From a virus, in the IMG/VR virus record IMGVR_UViG_3300031658_000099, positions 1 through 26,235 of that record: a stretch of 26,235 nt of DNA. The stretch is one strand, 5' to 3'. The stretch's first letter is position 1; the number at the start of each line of letters is the position of its first letter. The notes under the pieces were generated by a model, which was not told the DNA's origin, searched no databases, and saw nothing but the letters and a program-made list of their open reading frames with translations. Of the stretch, positions 1 to 25,729 are shown piece by piece. Both the position numbers and the translations under genes were made by a program.

Positions 1-214
1 GCGTTTGAAGATTCAGGAATTTCGAGAGTGTATTATCAAGCATGAAGAAGAACGGATCCCAATACTGGAGAGAATCAACAGCCACATCACACGCGGCAGC
101 GATTCCGACCGTGTGGCATTTGAACCTCAATCGATGGCAGACCTCAGAAGAAAACGCGATCCACTAAACATACCCGGATTAAATGAGCCTAAGCAAAGCA
201 AAGAAGAAACTTGA
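1..214 (+). CDS. 3' end of helicase-loader-like gene (duplicate view of 25566-26195)
   Basis: This open frame enters from the left edge and stops at 214. It encodes the same C-terminal residues (IQEFRECIIKHEEERIP...) as the complete gene at the right end of the window. It is therefore not a separate gene but the part of that gene lying past the circle join. Its last 32 bases overlap the start of the NinG-like gene in another frame. The single silent base difference at 127 leaves the protein unchanged. Confidence 0.9.
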   Translation, partial: RLKIQEFRECIIKHEEERIPILERINSHITRGSDSDRVAFEPQSMADLRRKRDPLNIPGLNEPKQSKEET

Positions 215-254
215 TACCGTCTTCTCTCAGTTCATACGTCTTCGCGGATGCAAT
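1..254. repeat. Terminal redundancy, left copy (genome wrap-around)
   Basis: Bases 1-254 are the same as 25982-26235 except for one position (T at 127, G at 26108). The difference is the third base of a proline codon and is silent. A protein-coding gene runs through the repeat at the right end and the next gene continues from the left end. The simplest reading is a circular or circularly permuted genome of 25,981 bp that was written out slightly past its starting point. Confidence 0.95.
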
Positions 255-581
255 GACGAAGGATGGGGAAACTGCTGGACTTGTGGTAGTTTGAGACGTT
301 GGCAAGATGTCGACTGCGGCCACTTCATAACACGGGCGAAGATGTCCACGCGATGGATGGAGACCAATTGCCAATTCCAATGTAAGCAATGCAACATGAA
401 CGGAGGGCAGCAATACGTATTTTCGAAGAAGCTCGACGAGTTTCACGGAGAAGGAACAGCGGAAGCAATCCTGATAGCAAGCAACCAGATACGCAAGTTC
501 TCCGTCCATGAGTTAGAAGAGATGTATCAATATTATAAAAAACGAGTCGATGAGATTAAAGAGTCGCGAGGCATGGGATGA
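183..581 (+). CDS. ninG: NinG/Rap-like recombination nuclease
   Basis: The 132-residue protein has a cysteine/histidine pattern typical of the lambda NinG (Rap) family: C31-x2-C34, then CGHF at 45-48, then C67-x2-C70-N. NinG proteins are HNH-like nucleases that act on branched DNA (Holliday junctions, D-loops) during phage recombination and replication. Lambda NinG is longer, so this is a compact version. The ATG at 183 lies inside the end of the helicase-loader-like gene, and the gene ends inside the sigma-like gene. That placement fits a replication/recombination operon. Family assignment rests on motif recognition; a generic HNH endonuclease is the main alternative. Confidence 0.75.
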   Translation: MSLSKAKKKLDTVFSQFIRLRGCNDEGWGNCWTCGSLRRWQDVDCGHFITRAKMSTRWMETNCQFQCKQCNMNGGQQYVFSKKLDEFHGEGTAEAILIASNQIRKFSVHELEEMYQYYKKRVDEIKESRGMG

Positions 582-2934: not shown

Positions 2935-3281
2935 TGGAAGCGATAAAAGTGAACAATCCGAACACCCCTAAAAAGGAAGCAATGCTCGAAGCTCTTGAGA
3001 AGTCTTTGGGTATTGTATCAACCGCGTGCAAGATGGTAGACGTAGGAAGAACGTCTCACTACGAATGGATGAAGGCAGACCCCGACTATAAGAAAGCGGT
3101 GGACTCTATCCAAGACAGCGTCCTCGACTTTGCAGAATCGCACCTCTATAAACTCGTGAAGGAAGGCAACCCCGCAGCGACCATCTTCTTCCTCAAGACC
3201 AAAGGAAAGAAGCGAGGGTATATAGAACGGCAAGAGATAGAGGTAACCGAGAAGAAGCCTCTTTCGTGGCTCGATGAGTAA
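2934..3281 (+). CDS. Small terminase subunit (TerS)
   Basis: The 115-residue protein has an N-terminal helix-turn-helix (LEALEKSLGIVSTACKMVDV then GRTSHYEWMKADPDYKKAV). After it comes the helix and the AATIFFLKTKGKKRGY segment that is typical of small terminase subunits. TerS binds phage DNA at the packaging start and recruits the large subunit. Position immediately before and overlapping the large subunit (ATGAGTAA at 3274) confirms the assignment. The start is the TAATG overlap with the ParB-like gene. Confidence 0.85.
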   Translation: MEAIKVNNPNTPKKEAMLEALEKSLGIVSTACKMVDVGRTSHYEWMKADPDYKKAVDSIQDSVLDFAESHLYKLVKEGNPAATIFFLKTKGKKRGYIERQEIEVTEKKPLSWLDE

Positions 3282-4428
3282 ACTCGCTGCAACATATTAT
3301 CACGTCAAGAAATCAAAGGCGAAGATCCAAGTCCATCAAGGGGGAAGTCGTAGCGGAAAGACATTCTCCATCCTTACGGCACTCATAGAGCTTTGCAATA
3401 AGAACACGGGGCTCGTGATTACCATATGCAGAAAGACCTTCCCTGCACTTCGAGCGACAGCGATGAGGGACTTCTTCGAGATACTCAACCGCGAAGGACT
3501 CTATAACCCCGACCACCACAACAAGAGCGAAGGAACGTACCGACTATGGGGTAACATGATAGAGTTCATTTCAGTCGATATGCCCGCCAAGGTCAGAGGT
3601 AGGAAGCGGGACATCCTCTTCATTAACGAAGCCAACGAGATAAACCTTGAAGACTGGCGACAGCTCCTCCTCAGAACAACGGGAAGAGTATTAATCGACT
3701 TCAACCCATCAGACGAATTTCATTGGATATATGAGCAAGTTATCCCAAGAGAAGATGCGGACTTCTTTCAAACAACGTACAAGGACAACCCGTTCCTTCC
3801 GCAAAGCGTGGTCATGGAGATCGAACGATTTAAAGACGTGGACGAGAACTTCTGGAGGGTCTACGGACTCGGAGAAAGAGGAATCGCCACATCGACCATC
3901 TTCACCCATTGGAAAGAAATAGACCAAATACCAAATGAATACAGACTCCTCAACATCGGGCTTGATTTCGGATATACGAACGACCCTACCGCAGTCGTCA
4001 GAATCTACACCGACGGGCACGGATTCGCCGTCGACGAAATCTGCTATGCGACGAGACTCACTAATTCAGATATCGCGAAAATGCTCCGAGATAATCAAGT
4101 CAATCGAACTGATGTTGTTATATGTGACTCCGCAGAACCCAAGAGCATCGACGAGATACATGCTCACGGATTCAATACTCACGGAGCAAGGAAAGGACGT
4201 GACTCAATTAGAAGCGGAATATCGTTCCTCCACTCTCGCCCGCTTGCGGTCACTTCTCGAAGCGTCAACCTCATCAGAGAGCTACGCAACTACAAGTGGA
4301 AAGAAGACAAGAACGGGAAGCAACTAAATGAACCCGTCGATTCTTTCAATCACGCGATAGATGCGATGAGGTACGGGATTACATGGAATCAAACGAACCC
4401 GAACTTTGGCTCCTATGCTATCGGATAA
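3274..4428 (+). CDS. terL: Large terminase subunit (TerL)
   Basis: The 384-residue packaging motor has an ATPase domain and a nuclease domain. Walker A is GGSRSGKT at 23-30. Walker B is DILFINEANE at 113-122, with the catalytic Glu. The nuclease begins with LDFGYTNDP near 230 and continues with CDSAEPKS near 285 and SFNHAIDAMRYG near 365, which supply the metal-binding acids of an RNase H-like fold. Length and motifs fit the PBSX/Terminase_3 family. It docks on the portal (gene at 18334) and cuts concatemeric DNA. It is the last gene of its operon; the next gene has its own promoter. Confidence 0.93.
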   Translation: MSKLAATYYHVKKSKAKIQVHQGGSRSGKTFSILTALIELCNKNTGLVITICRKTFPALRATAMRDFFEILNREGLYNPDHHNKSEGTYRLWGNMIEFISVDMPAKVRGRKRDILFINEANEINLEDWRQLLLRTTGRVLIDFNPSDEFHWIYEQVIPREDADFFQTTYKDNPFLPQSVVMEIERFKDVDENFWRVYGLGERGIATSTIFTHWKEIDQIPNEYRLLNIGLDFGYTNDPTAVVRIYTDGHGFAVDEICYATRLTNSDIAKMLRDNQVNRTDVVICDSAEPKSIDEIHAHGFNTHGARKGRDSIRSGISFLHSRPLAVTSRSVNLIRELRNYKWKEDKNGKQLNEPVDSFNHAIDAMRYGITWNQTNPNFGSYAIG

Positions 4429-4458: not shown

Positions 4459-4489
4459 TCGAGGGAAAGGAAAAAAAGCCTTACATTTG
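4459..4489 (+). promoter_or_regulatory. Bacteroidota-type promoter, cassette 1 (TACATTTG)
   Basis: TACATTTG at 4482-4489 fits the -7 element TAnnTTTG of the Bacteroidota primary sigma factor. The expected -33 TTG is poor here (TCG at 4459-4461, 20 bases upstream). The element and the following leader match the stronger promoter at 22568 almost base for base (about 40 of 46 positions through ATGAAC), which is the main support. Confidence 0.65.
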
Positions 4490-4521
4490 TGTCAACAACA
4501 ACGAAACAAACACACACAGCC

Positions 4522-4791
4522 ATGAACGACCAAGCAATCTATAACGAACTAGCAAAAGAGAACGGAGCCTTTGGAATCACTTTAGCTTGCGGTAATGTCG
4601 CTTTGGAGTTCAACAGCAAGACGCGAGAAATTACAGGCCGTCGAATAGACGCAGTAGCGGCAAAGACGAAGACCCTAGCCACTGACTTAATGTTACTGAA
4701 AAAGACCTTTGCTTTTCAAACAACATACGCAGAAGCCTTGGAGCAGATTATGTCTGAGTACAACGAAAACACTATTTCATTTTGCCGATAG
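4522..4791 (+). CDS. Hypothetical small protein, cargo of cassette 1 (89 aa)
   Basis: The ATG at 4522 is preferred over an in-frame GTG at 4489 because 4489 lies inside the promoter, and because ATGAAC after GCAGCC is identical at the second cassette. The protein (FGITLACGNVALEFNSKTREITGRRIDAV...LEQIMSEYNENTISFCR) looks like a beta-strand pair followed by helices. I do not recognise it, and it does not resemble the gene in the equivalent place of cassette 2. There is no Shine-Dalgarno sequence; the leader is rich in A and C. Its stop overlaps a GTG-started short peptide (TAGTG at 4789-4793). Confidence 0.65.
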   Translation: MNDQAIYNELAKENGAFGITLACGNVALEFNSKTREITGRRIDAVAAKTKTLATDLMLLKKTFAFQTTYAEALEQIMSEYNENTISFCR

Positions 4792-4862
4792 TGAATGAGC
4801 CTGAATGGTTTCAGCAGGTACTTGACCGCACCAACCAAACCGAATCCTTTCTTCTATCTTAA
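4791..4862 (+). CDS. NEPEW short peptide, copy 1 (23 aa, GTG start)
   Basis: GTG overlaps the stop of the previous gene (TAGTG), mirroring the TAATG/TGATG couplings elsewhere in this genome. The product contains NEPEWFQQVLDRTNQTE and is nearly identical to the start of the frame at 22910 (NEPEWVQQVLDRTEQTK). Between the copies AAT/AAC, GAG/GAA and CCT/CCC differ only at third positions, which indicates selection on the peptide. It ends two bases before a terminator hairpin. Function is unknown. No ATG is available, so weak or coupled translation is likely. Confidence 0.55.
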   Translation: MNEPEWFQQVLDRTNQTESFLLS

Positions 4863-4863
4863 C

Positions 4864-4887
4864 AGCCCCTCACGGGGCTTTTTTTTT
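4864..4887 (+). terminator. Rho-independent terminator after cassette 1
   Basis: A perfect six-base-pair stem AGCCCC/GGGGCT closes a TCAC loop and is followed directly by nine T residues. It separates cassette 1 from the late operon. Confidence 0.92.
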
Positions 4888-5043
4888 GTCCTAACTTTCC
4901 AGACACGCAAACCCGCAAAATCTCCGTGAATTATCCGCAAACACGCACGATTCACGCAAACACGCATTTCTCACGCATTTTTCACGCATTCCCGTATCGT
5001 ATGGGATTAGGTAAGGAAACCAATCAAATTAAGTTAGTATCAT
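4888..5043 (+). promoter_or_regulatory. Non-coding region before the late operon with phased CACGCA repeats
   Basis: CACGCA occurs six times, starting at 4904, 4942, 4953, 4961, 4972 and 4983. Several steps are 11 bases, about one DNA turn, and the related CCGCAA occurs at 4913 and 4935. An imperfect dyad CCCGTA-TCG-TATGGG lies at 4991-5005, and an A+T-rich stretch leads to the ATG at 5044. No TAnnTTTG promoter is visible. The region may hold the late promoter and its activator site, or an origin or packaging element; the sequence alone does not decide. Confidence 0.6.
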
Positions 5044-22466: not shown

Positions 22467-22516
22467 AGTATCTTTCGGAATGCTTTTTCGTTGGGCATAC
22501 CTGTTTTGTTTGGGGA

Positions 22517-22547
22517 GGGGGATTCGCAAGAGTCTCCCTTCTTTTTT
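22517..22547 (+). terminator. Rho-independent terminator of the late operon (GCAA tetraloop)
   Basis: GGGGGATTC at 22517-22525 pairs with GAGTCTCCC at 22530-22538 (nine pairs, two of them G-U), closed by a GCAA tetraloop of the stable GNRA class and followed by TTCTTTTTT. It marks the end of the structural and lysis genes. Confidence 0.9.
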
Positions 22548-22567
22548 CTCTGTTTTCTGTAAAATAG

Positions 22568-22598
22568 TTTGGTTATTAGAAAATAACATCTATATTTG
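22568..22598 (+). promoter_or_regulatory. Consensus Bacteroidota promoter (TTTG-N19-TATATTTG)
   Basis: TTTG at 22568-22571 is followed after exactly 19 bases by TATATTTG at 22591-22598, matching the -33/-7 consensus (TTG-N19-TAnnTTTG) of the Bacteroidota primary sigma factor. It lies just after the late terminator and just before an A/C-rich leader that lacks a Shine-Dalgarno sequence. It probably drives the early small-gene operon. Confidence 0.88.
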
Positions 22599-22629
22599 TG
22601 ACAGCAAAACGAAACAAACACACGCAGCC

Positions 22630-22896
22630 ATGAACAACGTAACCACAACAAAAGAGCTTAAAGGTCAATACTCAATTGAAGTGACTACTCCAAAAGGAGC
22701 AACGTACACATTTACTTTGCGTAATGAGTCAGGAATGGAAGACGTATGCAAAACAGATTTTTGGAATTTAACGACTATGGATGACTTGAACATGGACTGC
22801 TTGTCTTGGTGGCCATCTAAAAAGATTTGTCTACGCTATGTCATGCAAACGATTGATTTTGATTTCGCGGCTGCGAAATATAATCGTGAAGACTAA
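22630..22896 (+). CDS. Hypothetical small protein, cargo of cassette 2 (88 aa)
   Basis: ATG at 22630 is used because the in-frame extension upstream runs through the promoter and terminator. The protein (ELKGQYSIEVTTPKGATYTFTLR...DFWNLTTMDDLNMDCLSWWPSKKICLRYVMQTIDFDF) looks beta-rich at first and then mixed. I do not recognise it, and it does not resemble the protein in cassette 1, although promoter, leader and first codons (ATGAAC) are shared. As the first gene after a consensus early promoter, a host-takeover role is conceivable. Confidence 0.65.
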   Translation: MNNVTTTKELKGQYSIEVTTPKGATYTFTLRNESGMEDVCKTDFWNLTTMDDLNMDCLSWWPSKKICLRYVMQTIDFDFAAAKYNRED

Positions 22897-22909: not shown

Positions 22910-23119
22910 ATGAACAACGAACCCGAATGGGTTCAGCAGGTACTTGACCGCACCGAGCAAACCAAAAGCAATCTAACAAAACAAACAGATTATGGAACAC
23001 TACACAATCGAACTAGAAGACAATACTTCACTCGAAATAGAGTACGAAGTCGACGCAGGAGTCGAGGGGTCTTATCACGAAGCTCCTTCGAATGGCTTCC
23101 TCAGCATCCAATCTTGTAA
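22910..23119 (+). CDS. NEPEW short peptide, copy 2 (ATG start; 69 codons open)
   Basis: ATG at 22910 begins MNNEPEWVQQVLDRTEQTK, nearly identical to the peptide at 4791. After about residue 27 the frame runs 128 bases into the next gene out of phase, and the translation becomes Arg-rich without visible conservation. The functional part is therefore probably the first 20-30 residues, as in copy 1, which stops after 23. Silent differences between the copies support coding. Function is unknown. Confidence 0.55.
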   Translation: MNNEPEWVQQVLDRTEQTKSNLTKQTDYGTLHNRTRRQYFTRNRVRSRRRSRGVLSRSSFEWLPQHPIL

Positions 23120-24991: not shown

Positions 24992-25729
24992 ATGAAACAG
25001 AAAACCAACGGAATTTGGATCCCCGAAGAGATTTGGGAACTCGAAGACCTCAACCCAATGCAACGAATCTTCCTTTCTAAAGTCCATGCGCTATCTCAAA
25101 AGGACGGCTCGTGTTGGGCAGGCGATGACTTCCTTGCTGAAGCGTTGAGGGTATCCCCGCAGTACGTGAGGAAGATGCGTCAAGCACTTTGCGAGAGCGA
25201 GTATCTGGAATGTCAGGGATATGGACACCAAAGGAAGATGACAATCAACCTCGATTTGAAAGAAGCAACTACAGTTGCAAGTAGAAAAACCAAGAAGCAA
25301 CCACAGTTGCAAAAGAAGCAACCACAGTTGCAAGAGTTGCAACAGGAGGCGCAACTAAAAGCAACTACAGTTGCGCATAGTATAGACTATAGTAAAGAAC
25401 AGAATATAGAACATACTATAGAAGGGATTTTGCTTCCTTTTGATTCTCAAGATTTCAAAGATTCTTGGATCATGTGGAAACAAGAACGCAAAGAACAAAA
25501 AAAGAAACCGTATACCTTGCGAGGAGAACAAGCACAACTTCACAGATTACAAAAACTATCAGACAATGACCAACGAACAGCCATCGACATCATTACCTAT
25601 TCAATTGCCCAAGGATACCAGGGACTCTTCGCAGAGCGAGGAACTGCAAAGAAGGGAATACTTACAAGCCAAAGCGACAGAGATAAGCTTGAGGAGTATA
25701 TCCGCACCGGGTCTATTTCAAGCCAATAA
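24992..25729 (+). CDS. Replication initiator (lambda O / DnaD-like layout) with internal origin
   Basis: The 245-residue protein has an N-terminal winged-helix-type domain (MKQKTNGIWIPEEIWELEDL...FLAEALRVSPQYVRKMRQAL, residues 1-90). A Gln/Lys-rich linker (about 92-128) is encoded by the iterons. The C-terminal part ends DNDQRTAIDIITYSIAQGYQGLFA, typical of phage replication proteins with a DnaD-like tail. Initiators of this kind bind origin repeats inside their own gene and recruit the helicase loader. The next gene begins inside its last 164 bases in another frame. It follows a terminator, and I see no clear promoter in the 12 bases before its ATG. Confidence 0.75.
   Translation: MKQKTNGIWIPEEIWELEDLNPMQRIFLSKVHALSQKDGSCWAGDDFLAEALRVSPQYVRKMRQALCESEYLECQGYGHQRKMTINLDLKEATTVASRKTKKQPQLQKKQPQLQELQQEAQLKATTVAHSIDYSKEQNIEHTIEGILLPFDSQDFKDSWIMWKQERKEQKKKPYTLRGEQAQLHRLQKLSDNDQRTAIDIITYSIAQGYQGLFAERGTAKKGILTSQSDRDKLEEYIRTGSISSQ
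25265..25421 (+). other. Candidate replication origin: four palindromic iterons plus A+T-rich unwinding tract
   Basis: GCAACYACAGTTGC occurs at 25265, 25297, 25318 and 25361 (14 bases each, with dyad arms GCAAC/GTTGC). The start-to-start distances are 32, 21 and 43 bases, about 3, 2 and 4 helical turns, so the sites face the same side. Half-sites lie near 25336 and 25351. An A+T-rich stretch with TATAG at 25381, 25388, 25405 and 25417 follows. The layout mirrors the lambda origin inside gene O. Confidence 0.8.

Follow-up and report, generated by a model that had tools for sequence, protein, structure and literature searches.

A probable family of exchangeable small-gene expression cassettes in tailed phages of Bacteroidota

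The promoter-early stem-loop (PeSL) elements of T4-type phages are said to have been introduced as mobile regulatory cassettes by Arbiol et al. in 2010 and Comeau et al. in 2014. As cited in PMC4503421 and PMC4177764, PeSLs are repeated units of a promoter and a stem-loop terminator beside orphan genes, and modular gene shuffling between related phages is reported. Morons (a term used, for example, in PMC3918226) bring their own promoter and terminator, lie between genes that are adjacent in relatives and are expressed whether or not the lytic programme runs, as from a prophage. Cluster K mycobacteriophages carry 13-bp start-associated sequences (SAS/ESAS), for which a role in translation was proposed (PMC3203893). 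Here, we describe two cassettes of a phage genome, each with a leader, a very small cargo gene and a short peptide frame. The first-pass annotation of this DNA offered no known system with such a layout, which was too strong a statement because morons and PeSL cassettes are of the same kind. It is very likely that both belong to one family of expression cassettes that tailed phages of Bacteroidota exchange, and we propose a mechanism for it below.

The window, the whole stretch analyzed, comprises the 26,235 nucleotides of IMG/VR record IMGVR_UViG_3300031658_000099, a complete-looking virus record of 26 kb with a near-identical terminal repeat of 254 bp (100% as rounded, not letter for letter). 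Its main genes all lie on the plus strand in the order early/replication, packaging, virion and lysis. Given the terminal repeat and the common strand, the two cassettes (Table 1) lie on either side of the virion/lysis block in a probably circular genome, in agreement with their claimed position at both edges of that block. The nearest relatives of the window terminase are from Phocaeicola and Bacteroides phages (about 43%), and a search of genomes with the large terminase subunit (TerL) returned distant relatives only (36-45%), one of them in Bacteroides salyersiae. The virus is a small tailed phage, and its host group is Bacteroidota. No integrase, transposase or homing family was found among the window proteins scanned (which included part of the virion proteins), and with no recognized integrase there is no sign of a standard lysogen.

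Table 1. Positions of the cassette parts and of neighbouring landmarks in the window.
Feature	Position	Strand	Basis or remark
NinG/Rap-type recombination endonuclease	183-581	+	
Large terminase subunit (TerL)	3274-4428	+	site 1 lies directly 3' of TerL
Site 1 (TerL dock), cassette 1: -7 element TACATTTG and A-rich leader	4482-4521	+	two-copy leader; in 36 other cassettes at the TerL dock
Cargo c1, 89 aa, orphan	4522-4791	+	ORF
NEPEW copy 1, 23 codons, GTG overlapping the cargo stop TAG, end FLLS-stop	4791-4862	+	
Intrinsic terminator AGCCCCTCACGGGGCT and T-run	4864-4887	+	RNA fold -11.3 kcal/mol, z -2.8
Terminator closing the virion/lysis operon	22505-22548	+	RNA fold -21.2 kcal/mol, z -3.6; kept in relatives
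Site 2: early promoter (TTTGG, about 19 nt, TATATTTG) and leader	22567-22629	+	
Cargo c2, 88 aa	22630-22896	+	homologues at the TerL dock elsewhere
NEPEW copy 2, conserved part	22910-22966	+	frame runs on to 23119, overlapping gene 22992
Leader-like stretch CTAACAAAACAAACAGATT before gene 22992, right insertion edge	22967-22991	+	comparison with L188, L206, L023
Replication initiation protein	24992-25729	+	early/replication genes

The promoter and leader copies, estimated at about 40 of 46 positions alike at first pass, agree at 41 of 46 aligned positions with one gap (4482-4527 against 22591-22635). A 26-nt core of the leader and a 21-nt core of the NEPEW frame have exactly two occurrences each in the window and none in shuffles. 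The two cargo proteins are without similarity to each other, and each gene is followed by a NEPEW frame, just as the annotation had it. The frame starts with GTG after c1 and with ATG after c2. NEPEW copy 2 lacks both the FLLS-stop end and a terminator, and its frame of 69 codons extends into gene 22992. Site 2, located 3' of a holin-like gene and its terminator, where the early genes begin, carries -33 and -7 elements (TTTGG, TATATTTG) that make a good Bacteroidota promoter. At site 1, the -7 element is present but a clear -33 TTTG is missing, the sole such case among 37 cassettes.

A TerL search of the viral collection returned about 600 relatives, of which 80 loci were fetched (L numbers); extra loci were added via the leader, NEPEW and the metallophosphoesterase gene, and all counts describe this sample. 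Among non-redundant loci with both neighbours visible, the interval from TerL to the homologue of gene 5044 was empty (29-162 bp) in 47 and held a cassette in 45, a ratio that the leader search biases toward filled sites; the cassettes thus lie between genes adjacent in relatives, as morons do. There were 37 distinct cassettes with 26 cargo families by blastp/phmmer, 17 of which were seen once, and a terminator was conserved at the 3' end of the 37 with about 91% mean identity. We compared the 40 pairs of closest background that carry unrelated cargo. Mean identity was 94.3% in TerL, 94.0% in the next gene, 93.5% in the terminator, 81% in the promoter and 69% in the leader, against 52.4% in the cargo, where shuffled sequences gave 50.5%. 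With flanks and terminator this alike and the cargo close to the shuffled level, what stays the same is the frame, and what changes is the cargo. The relatives thus strongly support the modular unit with an exchanged middle gene that had been suggested, and the middle genes, falling into at least 26 families without detectable sequence homology, show by sequence no sign of being one diverged family. As to the anatomy first proposed, leader and cargo stand, while the constant 3' part is the terminator (outside the early operon) and NEPEW is optional.

The same cargo also travels between insertion sites. Eleven families occur at more than one dock (c2, MNYSITQ, MNYSIQQ, MQLT, MELKL, MTYTQEQ, MNTATA/MTNLE, MTNDINF, MIYNLP, MTTAFG and MNAQQL). 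Cargo is shared among the dock downstream of TerL, that at the early promoter, that separating TerS from TerL and, in another capsid lineage, that separating the capsid and connector genes. The 97-99% identity of L057 (early dock) and L116 (TerL dock) begins at TATCTTTG and ends midway through NEPEW, and the flanks are unrelated. The block common to L150 (early dock) and L036 (TerL dock) reaches from the leader through the terminator. For L008 of the window lineage and L099 of a lineage with a protease-capsid fusion, the likeness covers the leader, the cargo (97%), NEPEW and the terminator, and it breaks off directly after the T-run. The borders of the exchanged unit therefore vary among the middle of NEPEW, its end and the terminator. 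The cassettes provide a clear comparative case of single-gene exchange between phages with unrelated capsid modules.

Such blocks bear on the alternative that survives best, albeit as a very unlikely one, namely that leader and terminator are a functional consensus, kept by selection or independently evolved, and that the cargo differences reflect gene gain and loss in hypervariable spots. In its favour, TANNTTTG is what the host itself has as consensus -7 element, and Bacteroidota generally have A-rich leaders (PMC6847099). However, 27 leader nucleotides are identical in 43 viral contigs, and the 97-99% blocks run from the leader through the cargo to NEPEW or the terminator across docks with unrelated flanks. 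Moreover, a 23-nt leader core is absent from 84,980 prokaryote genomes, so that the leader also gives no prophage or host link.

It is extremely unlikely that one promoter-gene-peptide unit was duplicated within the genome and its middle genes then diverged beyond recognition. The close likeness of the two leaders and of the two NEPEW copies in the window, together with the rarity of this leader subtype in other phages, would suit a duplication, but leader and NEPEW retain about 86-90% identity while the cargoes share nothing. Furthermore, c2 has homologues at the TerL dock of other phages (82% identity; L042, L043, L044 and L090) and one in L005, whereas c1 occurs nowhere else apart from its only relative, the 100% identical contig L003/L208, and 26 cargo families occupy the same frame among relatives. 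Given the c2 homologues and the unrelated cargoes in one frame, the duplication is largely refuted as far as sequence can tell. Least probable is a true mobile element moved by an integron-like site-specific recombinase or by a homing nuclease recognizing its ends: cassette-like units, 3' hairpins, tandem arrays in L106 and L101 and fixed docks would fit it, but no such enzyme family turned up in the scan, no end repeats or target duplications were seen by eye at the cassettes, and the boundaries vary, so that recombinase and end repeats were considered as movers without gaining support.

In L090, TerL and a cassette with a c2 homologue and NEPEW are joined straight to early genes, the virion block being skipped. 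Either two docks recombined within NEPEW and the part between them was deleted, or the junction is an assembly join, as individual joins could be among the relatives, many of whose contigs are fragments. L090 is accordingly not counted as proof that the docks recombine with each other.

Returning to exchangeable cassettes as the preferred reading, the docks other than that after TerL differ in how they hold the cassette. In L188, L206, L132 and L023, the early promoter leads directly into the homologue of gene 22992, leaving the early dock empty, and in L188, L206 and L023 an early leader ending ACAGAT-ATGGAACAC directly follows the promoter. In the window, c2 and NEPEW sit inside this early leader, and a leader-like stretch again precedes gene 22992. 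L128 has the same layout with another cargo and a hairpin, and L101 has two tandem cargoes with a hairpin after each. From the empty and filled early leaders, it follows that site 2 consists of the early promoter and a leader in which a cassette can dock. The earlier picture of a promoter-cargo-peptide unit thus needs correction at site 2, where the promoter is the ordinary early promoter of the phage, present likewise in relatives lacking a cassette. The TerS-TerL dock is filled in L051, L053, L057, L071 and L120, and in 58 other relatives TerS and TerL overlap by a few bases with no cassette between them. In the second phage lineage, which has a fused prohead protease-capsid protein (PF04586, PF05065), cassettes lie between the fusion gene and the head-tail connector (PF05135) in L099, L107, L113 and L106. 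L106 carries two complete cassettes in tandem, with a terminator and then a promoter between them, and L057 has cassettes at three docks. The leader occurs in one to three copies per genome.

How might such a cassette work? The sigma-A promoter consensus of Bacteroidota is -33 TTTG and -7 TANNTTTG, and in Flavobacterium adenines upstream of the start codon raise translation (PMC6847099). The -7 element with an upstream TTTG or TTGG is present in 36 of the 37 cassettes and fits the consensus of the primary sigma factor of Bacteroidota. By sequence, a cassette consists of a sigma-A type promoter with a near-constant -7 element and an A-rich leader, one or two very small cargo genes, optionally NEPEW, and a terminator at the virion and packaging docks. 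Host RNA polymerase would read the promoter at once on infection, giving early cargo, and the A-rich leader would allow good translation without a Shine-Dalgarno site. The terminator would insulate the cassette from the late operon. Its motif was found no more than 1 kb from the leader at 43 of 45 places at the TerL dock, at all nine at the capsid dock and at none of 36 at the early dock, although L150 has a variant terminator there, followed by a further promoter. The lack at the early dock is as expected if a strong terminator in that place would stop the early operon with its replication genes; there, the cassette lies within the leader and does without one. In order, the unit comprises leader, cargo and terminator at the virion-gene docks, and leader, cargo and either NEPEW or a hairpin, but no strong terminator, at the early dock. 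The constant ends may serve as homology arms, by which ordinary phage recombination would move cargo between docks, phages and capsid lineages; a NinG/Rap-type recombination endonuclease is among the proteins of the window.

In L051 (2035-2360), L053, L057 and L150, we also noticed a promoter of the form TATCTTTACACC-ATG with an in-frame start rich in Asn and Thr (MTNANNTTM..). These transcripts look nearly leaderless, and their first codons seem to resemble the A-rich leader.

Turning to the peptide, we found 26 copies of NEPEW, none of them outside a cassette: the leader lies 226-388 nt upstream in 25, and the 26th is on a truncated contig. At the leader places after TerL, NEPEW is present in 17 of 45 by a loose count. 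The linkage anticipated at first pass therefore holds in one direction, as the leader often occurs without the peptide and the peptide was not found without the leader. Across 16 DNA versions of an 11-codon core, pairwise differences at codon positions 1, 2 and 3 number 142, 0 and 319 with pN/pS of 0.10, so that NEPEW is evidently made as a peptide and is under selection as such. It begins on the cargo stop or a short distance downstream of it. At the TerL and capsid docks, it mostly ends with FLLS or FLLD before the terminator. Copies at the early dock continue into the following gene, those of L057 and L004 in frame and those of the window and L009 out of frame. Because NEPEW accompanies about ten cargo families and is missing from many cassettes, it is an optional 3' module. 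We regard as doubtful, though worth stating, the idea that it is a 24-aa micropeptide partner, translationally coupled to the cargo mRNA and acting with or on unrelated cargo, whose coding sequence doubles as a recombination joint. The shared role could be, for example, that of a stabilizing, targeting or regulatory peptide. If true, strong purifying selection would here act on a recombination joint that encodes protein, which would make it a module of a new kind.

The cargoes themselves are under selection, with dN/dS of 0.03-0.25 in 11 pairs (0.14 for c2 against L042), and are thus functional proteins. For 30 cargo proteins and two NEPEW versions, Pfam, PHROG and PADLOC gave hits at chance level only; c1 had no match in Pfam, PHROG or the phage database, and neither c1 nor c2 had one among annotated phage records. 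One of the few recognizable domains is a TrmB-type winged helix (PF01978, E 2e-6) in the 93-aa cargo of the first L106 cassette. The AlphaFold model of c1 (pLDDT 41) was not usable, and that of c2 (pLDDT 69) had no Foldseek match in the PDB with E <0.5, so that its fold gives no function. By eye, several cargoes have a common beta-sheet-plus-helix look. Position, turnover and promoter type make it plausible that the cargoes are early host-directed accessory proteins for takeover or counter-defence, and early, rapidly exchanged genes under selection are the expected place of such proteins. With the constant leader and terminator as bait, small accessory phage genes that are not in databases can be retrieved.

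With PeSLs, the likeness lies, by sequence only, in an early promoter and a stem-loop terminator beside variable genes, and in the shuffling of neighbouring genes, which we read from exchange-unit alignments and cargo turnover, that is, by comparison only. Our case differs in that the window is a 26 kb phage and not a T4-type myovirus, with promoters of host sigma-A type, that promoter and terminator bracket the cargo, that the docks are few and fixed whereas PeSLs occupy many sites, that an optional coupled peptide stands at the 3' end, and that exchange crosses lineages with different capsids. With morons, the cassettes share a promoter and terminator of their own, insertion between TerL and the next gene and the empty site in relatives; the first of these features was found by sequence at site 1 but not at site 2, which has the early promoter and no terminator. 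Unlike morons, they have a conserved, interchangeable frame with dozens of cargoes and multiple docks, including one in the early operon that has no terminator. SAS/ESAS are likewise short phage-specific repeats just 5' of the start codons of non-structural genes and essentially absent from the host. However, they are 13-mers of the GGGATAGGAGCCC type, 3-7 nt before the starts, numerous in each genome and linked to particular gene families, whereas our leader is of the AGACATCAAACGAAACAAA type with two copies in the window, in cassettes with a promoter, a 3' module and ever-changing genes. Interchangeable cargo, a 3' hairpin and occasional tandem arrays recall integrons, but no integrase was recognized among the window proteins scanned, nor any attC site, the boundaries are not fixed, and here the promoter travels with the cargo. 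Judged by sequence, the cassettes belong neither to the T4 PeSL family nor to the mycobacteriophage SAS. The cassette variant, its host group and the peptide appear to be undescribed so far; what is new is the host group, a small set of docks that two capsid lineages have in common, the absence of the terminator from the early dock, and an optional conserved micropeptide where the exchanged stretch ends.

Three further observations concern the surroundings of the cassettes. Between the cassette terminator and gene 5044, an array of short repeats (CACGCAAAC, CCCGCAAA and CCCGTAAA type; 4898-5010) is found in many relatives with or without a cassette (gaps 83-162 bp) and could be a regulator-binding or packaging-related array. 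The protein encoded at 550-1035 weakly matches phage sigma factors (phrog_1740, E 2e-4); as a candidate late-transcription factor, it might account for transcripts that get past the cassette terminator. Within the replication initiation gene, four near-identical 23-nt repeats with the palindromic core GCAACTACAGTTGC (25259-25377) look like an iteron-type replication origin.
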